Below the pieces are notes generated by a model. The model was not told where the DNA came from. It saw only the letters and a list, made by a program, of their open reading frames with translations, and did no database searches. Below are positions 15,614-16,149 of a stretch of DNA of 64,000 bases, piece by piece. The translations under genes were made by a program, and so were the position numbers. The DNA lies in contig NZ_JBEWSZ010000001.1 of the NCBI RefSeq assembly GCF_040537815.1, positions 4,526,001 through 4,590,000 on the forward strand, in the 5' to 3' direction. The number at the start of each line of letters is the position of its first letter. The stretch's first letter is position 1. This DNA comes from Mesorhizobium shangrilense (GTDB lineage Bacteria > Pseudomonadota > Alphaproteobacteria > Rhizobiales > Rhizobiaceae).

Positions 15614-15646
15614 GCCGGCCATTTCTTCTACATGCTTTGATCCGAG

Positions 15647-15700
15647 GCGGCGCATGGGCCCGAAAATCAGACTCTGATTTTCGGAAGCCTTATGCGCCGC
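15647..15700. terminator. Long stem-loop after the 41-aa gene
   Basis: GCGGCGCAT (15647-15655) pairs with ATGCGCCGC (15692-15700). Inside it CCGAAAATCA pairs with TGATTTTCGG. There is no U-run, so this may be a mosaic palindromic repeat rather than a true intrinsic terminator. It separates the small basic gene from the riboswitch-controlled exporter. Confidence 0.5.
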
Positions 15701-15762
15701 TTCGACGTTCGGTGTGCCCCGCCGAAATTGTTGATTGAGCGCGCAAGACCTCCTATATCGAC

Positions 15763-15815
15763 GCGGCGAGGACGGCCTCGCGCTCTCCCCCGAAAACCGG
15801 CCGGGACGACCCGCT
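15763..15815 (+). promoter_or_regulatory. Guanidine-II (mini-ykkC) riboswitch controlling sugE/gdx
   Basis: Two successive hairpins each close an ACGR tetraloop. The first is GCGAGG-ACGG-CCTCGC at 15766-15781 and the second is CGGG-ACGA-CCCG at 15802-15813. They are separated by a 20-base linker. GGAG at 15824-15827 then leads to the ATG at 15835. Twin hairpins with ACGG/ACGA loops just before the Shine-Dalgarno sequence of a small multidrug-resistance gene are the defining architecture of the guanidine-II class, known to switch on translation of guanidinium exporters. The mechanism here is inferred; the structural match is seen directly. Confidence 0.9.
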
Positions 15816-15834
15816 AACTCAACGGAGCGTTCCA

Positions 15835-16149
15835 ATGTCCTGGATTTTTCTTTTTATCGCTGGCCTGTTCGAAATCGGCTGGGCGATCGGCCTCAAATAC
15901 ACTGACGGATTTTCAAAACCGCTGCCAACCGTTCTGACGGTTGCCTCGATGATCGTCAGCCTTGCCTTGCTCGGTCTGGCGCTCAAGGCGCTGCCAGTCG
16001 GCACGGCTTATGCGGTGTGGACCGGCATCGGCACTGTCGGCACGGCACTGCTCGGCATCTGGTTGCTGGGCGAGCCCGCGACCGCTATCCGCCTGGGCTG
16101 CATCGCGCTGATCGTCTGCGGCATCATGGGATTGAAGCTCGCGGCGTAA
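15835..16149 (+). CDS. sugE: Guanidinium exporter Gdx/SugE (SMR family)
   Basis: This encodes 104 residues with four membrane helices. The essential proton/substrate-coupling Glu is E13 in [17 protein letters not shown], which matches the guanidinium-exporter (Gdx) branch of the small multidrug resistance family rather than EmrE. The GWAIGLKYT context and [18 protein letters not shown] in helix three are typical. As a dual-topology dimer it exchanges guanidinium for two protons across the inner membrane. It sits directly behind a guanidine-II riboswitch, which strongly supports the physiological substrate. Confidence 0.95.

Follow-up and report, generated by a model that had tools for sequence, protein, structure and literature searches.

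A guanidine-II riboswitch that turns on translation of a guanidinium exporter very probably lies directly upstream of gdx (sugE) in Mesorhizobium shangrilense. Guanidinium is a small toxic cation. The element was read in the window, by which we mean the whole 64,000-nucleotide stretch of DNA that was analysed.

The aptamer, the exporter gene and the promoter

A cmscan search with Rfam 15 matched the leader to the guanidine-II family RF01068 with 32.5 bits, only just above the family's gathering score (32); the E-value was 0.011 in the search of 64 kb against 4227 families and 4.7e-5 in one limited to 281 nt. This was the sole Rfam family to reach its curated cut-off in the window, with guanidine classes III and IV both falling short there. 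Across the 8.35 Mb of the same genome, no second RF01068 match was reported at E<=0.001, and no match to guanidine-I was found. The first-pass annotation had assigned the leader to the guanidine-II (mini-ykkC) class on the basis of two tetraloop hairpins about 20 bases apart, a GGAG and an ATG, all of which direct reading located in their places. It had also proposed a covariance-model check, which the leader passed narrowly. Because the pass was narrow, conservation was tested without Rfam.

The features of the family are all present, namely two GC-rich hairpins capped by ACGR loops (ACGG and ACGA), a short linker of 20 nt and, 21 nt past P2, the start codon of a Gdx protein, which places a guanidine export gene downstream. 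Both loops carry the C-G bases that the predicted kissing contact would require. When formulated as a pattern (two ACGR hairpins of at least 4 bp each, 8-45 nt apart), the pair occurred once in a search of both strands of the 64 kb and in 0/5000 dinucleotide-shuffled versions of the 150 nt that precede the gene. Among the 80 best relatives selected on the SugE protein, 52 carried the pair within 150 nt upstream, where shuffles expect 0.0; it was found in 0/80 within the first 150 nt of sugE and in 0/80 within the 150 nt past the gene. The fifth and sixth P1 pairs from the loop, which lie outside the criteria used to select the relatives, could form in 52 and 48, respectively, of 58 distinct relatives (shuffled, 27.6 and 34.8). 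The corresponding P2 pairs beyond the 4-bp stem were near chance, at 23 and 32 of 48 relatives (shuffled, 17.3 and 24.3). This conservation before sugE, taken with the RF01068 match, supports the original guanidine-II assignment.

The predicted fold of the 101-nt leader is no more stable than that of its shuffles (z 0.04) and in itself gives no signal for a riboswitch, as would be the case for a chance pair of GC-rich hairpins without a sensing role. Such a coincidence is contradicted by the family score, the conservation before sugE, the position and the gene context, and we regard it as extremely improbable.

The gdx product matched Pfam PF00893 with 96.6 bits and passed the NCBIfam equivalog for SugE, NF008512 (137.7 bits against a cut-off of 126). 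Its best solved relatives were PDB 6wk5 (E 2.7e-28) and a close variant, and it has E13, W16, S42, Y59 and W62 together with a GIG motif. According to the accessible text of PMC7695847, 6wk5 is Gdx-Clo, Trp16 is conserved in Gdx proteins and replaced by Gly or Ala in Qac pumps, and Glu13 is common to multidrug SMRs. The window protein aligns with residues 1-102 of Gdx-Clo and has all five of these residues in common with it; Gdx-Clo comes from another organism, however, and guanidinium transport by the window protein is a prediction. The SugE equivalog score, the 6wk5 relative and Trp16, the residue that marks the Gdx subtype, bear out the earlier description of a Gdx-type exporter. The use of Glu13 as an indicator of guanidinium does not hold, since this residue also occurs in multidrug SMRs and it is Trp16 that discriminates. 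Two further SMR genes in the same genome both encode Gly at the Trp16 place, and neither has a guanidine-II or guanidine-I match. The closest named relative at the locus is Mesorhizobium amorphae, whose SugE is 98% identical.

A promoter is predicted immediately upstream of P1. In the 28 nt before P1, a -10-like box (TANA[TA][TC]) was present in 65 of 106 leaders from the genus, where shuffles expect 6.0 (13/119 leaders had been dropped as their upstream sequence was missing). This box stood at one shared distance from the P1 loop in 61 of the 65, including the window, and in 65/65 it was preceded by a TTG at a distance of 16-18 nt. A generic promoter scan of the locus returned 0 promoters because the boxes fall below its threshold. 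The conserved placement of the -10-like and -35-like sequences suggests that the transcript probably begins at about position 15766, the first base of P1, in which case the leader would be about 69 nt long and consist almost entirely of riboswitch. Against this start, the second coordinate set listed for the Mesorhizobium huakuii element in the available text of PMC5596092, taken as an RNA-seq product, begins 28 nt before the element.

Two further features lie upstream. A possible small ORF of 41 aa, rich in Lys, Ala and Pro, was read by eye, and a near-perfect palindrome separates it from the riboswitch promoter. A mir-5615 match within the palindrome (15641-15704; 19.4 bits against a cut-off of 82) was dismissed as a chance match to the palindromic sequence. 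The palindrome was likewise rejected as a widespread repeat, with just two partial extra copies in the genome (86-89% over 35 nt, E<=0.001).

Table 1. Features of the gdx leader in the window and loci of the AtpB2 group (L, G and C numbers are our handles for loci, genomes and contigs)
Feature	Position	Strand	Remarks
Possible small ORF, 41 aa	15488-15613		Read by eye
Near-perfect palindrome	15640-15706		Between the small Lys-rich ORF and the riboswitch promoter
-35 box TTGATT, predicted	15731-15736	+	Direct reading
-10 box TATATC, predicted	15754-15759	+	17 nt after -35; six bases before P1
Guanidine-II (mini-ykkC) aptamer, Rfam RF01068	15764-15814	+	cmscan, 32.5 bits
P1 hairpin GCGAGG-ACGG-CCTCGC	15766-15781	+	6 pairs, loop ACGG 15772-15775; direct reading
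Linker	15782-15801	+	20 nt; contains CUCUCC, the complement of GGAG, as in published anti-SDs
P2 hairpin CGGG-ACGA-CCCG	15802-15813	+	4 pairs, loop ACGA 15806-15809; also predicted anti-SD
GGGACG	15803-15808	+	Predicted partner of CGUUCC 15828-15833 with P2 open; minimum-energy fold
Shine-Dalgarno GGAG 15824-15827 and CGUUCC 15828-15833	15823-15833	+	Direct reading and fold
P2-pairing segment	15823-15825	+	Predicted partner of P2 15811-15813 when OFF
gdx/sugE, 104-aa SMR guanidinium exporter (predicted)	15835-16149	+	ATG 15835; Pfam, NCBIfam, PDB relative, W16
AtpB2 loci in the genus	L132/L287 = G030:C5:105391-106631; L174/L288 = G061:C62:83655-84950
Further AtpB2 loci	L298-L327, L329-L338, L347, L348; L328 = NZ_CP088276.1:89136-89885
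Distinct long AtpB2 leaders (24)	L301-L309, L311, L312, L314, L318-L320, L323, L325, L326, L328, L330, L332-L334, L347		92-225 nt

Predicted pairing between P2 and the start site

P2 and the Shine-Dalgarno (SD)/start region are predicted to compete. Without guanidinium, P1 would be folded and P2 open, with the 5' half of the open P2 paired to the CGUUCC that immediately precedes the start codon and the 3' end of P2 paired to the SD sequence, which would hide the start site. Guanidinium in both ACGR loops would, as proposed for the family, bring about kissing through their C-G bases and hold P2 shut, leaving GGAG free for the ribosome. The Gdx pump, predicted to export guanidinium against protons, would then switch the system off again.

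Energy calculations, which ignore the kissing contact and the ligand, form the basis for the predicted release of the SD on formation of P1 and P2. In the minimum-energy fold computed for the window, P1 was kept and P2 was open, pairing GGGACG with CGUUCC and CCG with CGG (Table 1). Forcing both hairpins to form cost 2.4 kcal/mol and lowered the price of opening the SD from 4.61 to 2.88 kcal/mol. This gain of 1.74 kcal/mol (p 0.03, 60 shuffles) is a weak test on its own, since swapped aptamers gave 1.51. The calculation was extended to a set assembled from 286 loci, many of them duplicates or not sugE leaders. Setting aside 87 without a recognised start and 30 without a hairpin pair kept 169, to which 19 were added by position to give 188, and removal of near-duplicates left 77 non-redundant leaders.

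Across these 77 leaders, the mean SD gain from P1 and P2 was 1.46 kcal/mol, compared to 0.09 after shuffling of the stretch from P2 to the start; having been chosen for two hairpins, the set says nothing about leaders that lack them. The gain exceeded the leader's own shuffle mean in 59/77 (p<0.1 in 31/77) and was no better than that mean in 18/77, and the leader's own aptamer outperformed swapped aptamers in 52/77 (p 2.8e-5). When the contributions were separated, P2 accounted for 1.15 kcal/mol (p 1.1e-6) and P1 for 0.07 (p 0.2).

The published expression platform, as described in the accessible portions of PMC9094411, PMC7544219 and PMC9300104, differs in placing the anti-SD in the linker, so that CUCUCC would occupy GGAG while the switch is OFF and be withdrawn once P1 and P2 kiss. 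The complementarity is plain in the window sequence, yet the computed partner probabilities of the SD there were 0.02 for the linker and 0.43 for the 3' half of P2. Over the 77 leaders, pairing of the SD with the 3' half of P2 reached 0.244, about five times its control of 0.050 (p 1.3e-5), whereas pairing with the linker (0.086) was below both of its shuffle controls (0.145 and 0.110); pairing with the stretch between P2 and the SD (0.244) was not above control (0.211). Blocking the linker yielded an SD gain of 0.42 kcal/mol over all leaders (p 0.013). This figure divides into 0.89 kcal/mol for the 45 leaders outside the genus (p 0.00067) and -0.25 for the 32 within it, where an unpaired linker leaves the SD closed. 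Leaders of the L133 type do use the linker as anti-SD in the computed fold. As the sole anti-SD, the linker was weaker than P2 in both the pairing probabilities and the blocking calculations, and we consider the linker-based arrangement unlikely for the window.

The anti-SD thus probably lies in P2 more often than in the linker, as far as these models go. The available text of PMC9094411 also reports a state with P2 open. In addition, RNA-seq of an Escherichia coli strain that lacks 20 bp including P2 revealed constitutive upregulation of gdx, according to the accessible part of PMC13064478, in a comparison with one sample per condition, a strain carrying other mutations and a deletion that extends into the stretch between P2 and the SD. 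Such upregulation is expected if P2 carries the block. The preference for P2 over the linker that emerged from the 77 leaders therefore agrees with a published deletion and is directly testable.

The E. coli K-12 leader, with an SD gain of just 0.79 kcal/mol in this model, offers a point of comparison in the guanidine-II element of gdx/sugE. It has two ACGR-loop hairpins, a short linker, GGAG and a Gdx exporter in common with the window. The two differ in loop order (ACGA then ACGG in E. coli, ACGG then ACGA in the window), in the length of P1 (8 bp against 6 bp) and in the anti-SD, which is predicted in P2 for the window but placed in the linker by the published model.

Distribution in Mesorhizobium and beyond

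RF01068 matches were found in 120/146 genomes of the genus, 113 of them above cut-off, in a search whose filters may lose weak matches. Among the 26 genomes without a match, 25 have an SMR-like match, 21 of these with 79-97% identity along almost the entire protein. We scanned 20 of 30 loci from the match-free genomes by cmscan, leaving out L205 (a close sugE) and L225-L233, and detected a sub-threshold copy of 24.6-29.9 bits in 12/20. In two match-free genomes, sugE is apparently broken or partial (L227/L231 in G100:C7 and L228 in G110:C1), with protein matches in separate pieces or confined to residues 1-21. In wider samples that both include the M. shangrilense genome, 19/190 genomes of the class and 39/200 of the phylum matched RF01068, the phylum sample also containing other members of the genus.

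An RF01068 element in M. huakuii 7653R, MH_s35, was already listed in 2017 (accessible text of PMC5596092). It shares the Rfam family and genus name with the window element and is given as a 51-nt intergenic element for which a transcript is listed, but belongs to a different strain. Since the element is common in the genus and had been listed by then, the window copy is of an ordinary, already known kind, part of a textbook riboswitch/exporter pair, and has little importance past annotation.

Leader design varies within the genus. The ACGG/ACGA loop pair of the window is uncommon (9/119 leaders, against 106/119 with ACGA/ACGA). P2 lies at most 30 nt from the start codon, as in the window, in 26/119 leaders and at least 31 nt away in the other 93. 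In all 93 leaders with at least 40 nt past P2, that stretch has a predicted fold below -5 kcal/mol, a figure obtained with no shuffle control. Short and long leaders occur intermingled in the genus; in M. amorphae (L002), for example, 82 nt separate P2 from the start, compared to 21 in the window.

The threshold score, short P2 and uncommon loop pair could also describe a decayed riboswitch that has lost switching. The score is indeed close to the low end of the 30.5-51 bits listed for the genus, in which ACGG in P1 is uncommon. Against decay, the stem and the ACGR loop of each hairpin are intact, the promoter-like boxes keep their conserved position, P2 stems of 4 bp are the norm in the genus, and the missing outer pairs of P1 fall at or beyond the predicted transcript start. 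Furthermore, the hairpins and loops recur unchanged in another leader (L194), whose linker is 19 nt long and whose start codon likewise follows at 21 nt. We therefore judge decay to be very unlikely.

Some copies in the genus precede other genes. Second guanidine-II copies of 34.5 bits (L178 and L180; G045:C1:1551637 and G048:C22:115111) are followed by a gene whose product we take to resemble a urea-carboxylase-associated protein of the carboxyguanidine deiminase type. A guanidine-II-like sequence with an expanded P2, at 31.3 bits and below cut-off (L200; G046:C1:5211519-5211578), precedes what is presumably an amino-acid ABC permease-like gene.

A bacterium that associates with legumes would plausibly encounter this ligand. 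Plants make guanidine, with up to 2.4 umol per g dry weight in legume seeds and seedlings (available text of PMC11018352), and hydroxyguanidine from canavanine breakdown triggers a guanidine-I riboswitch (accessible part of PMC10018355).

A second ATP-synthase subunit a downstream of guanidine-II elements

In two genomes of the genus (G030 and G061), an above-threshold guanidine-II element is located directly before a gene for ATP-synthase subunit a, which is followed by a Gdx-type gene. Both genomes also have a canonical atpB elsewhere; the M. shangrilense genome has one atpB only and is without this second, stand-alone form, here termed AtpB2. A protein search of 346 genomes of the family retrieved at least 40 AtpB2 copies at 70-93% identity with all 248 residues aligned. 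Canonical copies align from residue 3 or 4 and reach 72% identity, so that identity alone does not separate the two. Among 385 genomes sampled across the class, the top match apart from the canonical copy of M. shangrilense was 61% identical, and no AtpB2 was thus seen beyond the family. Among named strains, AtpB2 is carried by Ensifer adhaerens L18, Rhizobiales bacterium AFS045263 and, on plasmid pT1293b, Phyllobacterium sp. T1293. The E. adhaerens genome shares coordinates with family member G816, so the family is probably Rhizobiaceae in the broad sense.

Rfam placed a guanidine-II element at or above cut-off upstream of atpB2 in 28 of the 30 best copies; the exceptions were L316, without an element, and L327, with 28.4 bits upstream. 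Six canonical atpB loci scanned alongside had no guanidine-II match. Among the 43 distinct AtpB2 copies read (L331 of the listed 40 was left out), an element preceded 40, of which 37 were recognized by pattern, L317 and L322 by Rfam, and L327 by its sub-threshold score and by eye. The pattern and Rfam tests found no riboswitch before atpB2 in L316, L335 and L336, and 0/20 distinct canonical atpB genes had an element up to 450 nt upstream. Position and conservation make control of atpB2 by the riboswitch well supported at the level of sequence.

Arg210 of subunit a (E. coli numbering) is essential, and the changes that mark AtpB2 flank it. At E. coli positions 207 and 214, His and Val were present in 43/43 AtpB2 copies and Leu and Asn in 20/20 canonical copies. 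AtpB2 was first told apart by its His, which makes this residue in part a matter of definition, unlike the Val and the riboswitch. I248M and L251I were also fixed in 42 aligned copies. In a FastTree phylogeny rooted on E. coli, AtpB2 formed one clade with modest support (0.575).

We infer that AtpB2 protects ATP synthase from guanidinium. Guanidinium, which mimics the head group of arginine, would poison the arginine-based path that protons take between subunit a and the c-ring; AtpB2 would be swapped into ATP synthase as guanidinium builds up and, with its L207H and N214V changes beside Arg210, would be resistant. That gdx is one arm of a guanidinium-protection regulon, with a riboswitch-controlled AtpB2 that in related genera of the family is swapped into ATP synthase to resist guanidinium poisoning, is a tentative proposal to which we give slightly less than even confidence. 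Amiloride is an acylguanidine. The accessible text of PMC8873251 describes an amiloride derivative that acts on the mycobacterial F1Fo-ATP synthase. If the proposal is true, ATP synthase would be a physiological target of guanidinium; confirmation of the AtpB2 link would name a cellular target of this cation and bear on why so many bacteria sense and expel it.

The association of guanidine-II with AtpB2, which lies outside the window, looks new and merits separate study. Within the accessible portions of the open-access literature, we found no paper linking a guanidine riboswitch with ATP synthase or atpB, or a second rhizobial atpB to such a riboswitch, and in the available part of PMC9971707 ATP synthase is mentioned only in connection with the Na+-I riboswitch.

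A gdx-like gene was present within the fetched stretch around atpB2 in 8/30 cases. With start codons chosen by script, the distance from the riboswitch to the atpB2 start was 11-22 nt in some leaders and 92-225 nt in others. A loose rule, applied with no shuffle control, picked out a possible small ORF ending near the start codon in 19/24 distinct long leaders, and in Phyllobacterium the stop of the small ORF overlaps the atpB2 start.
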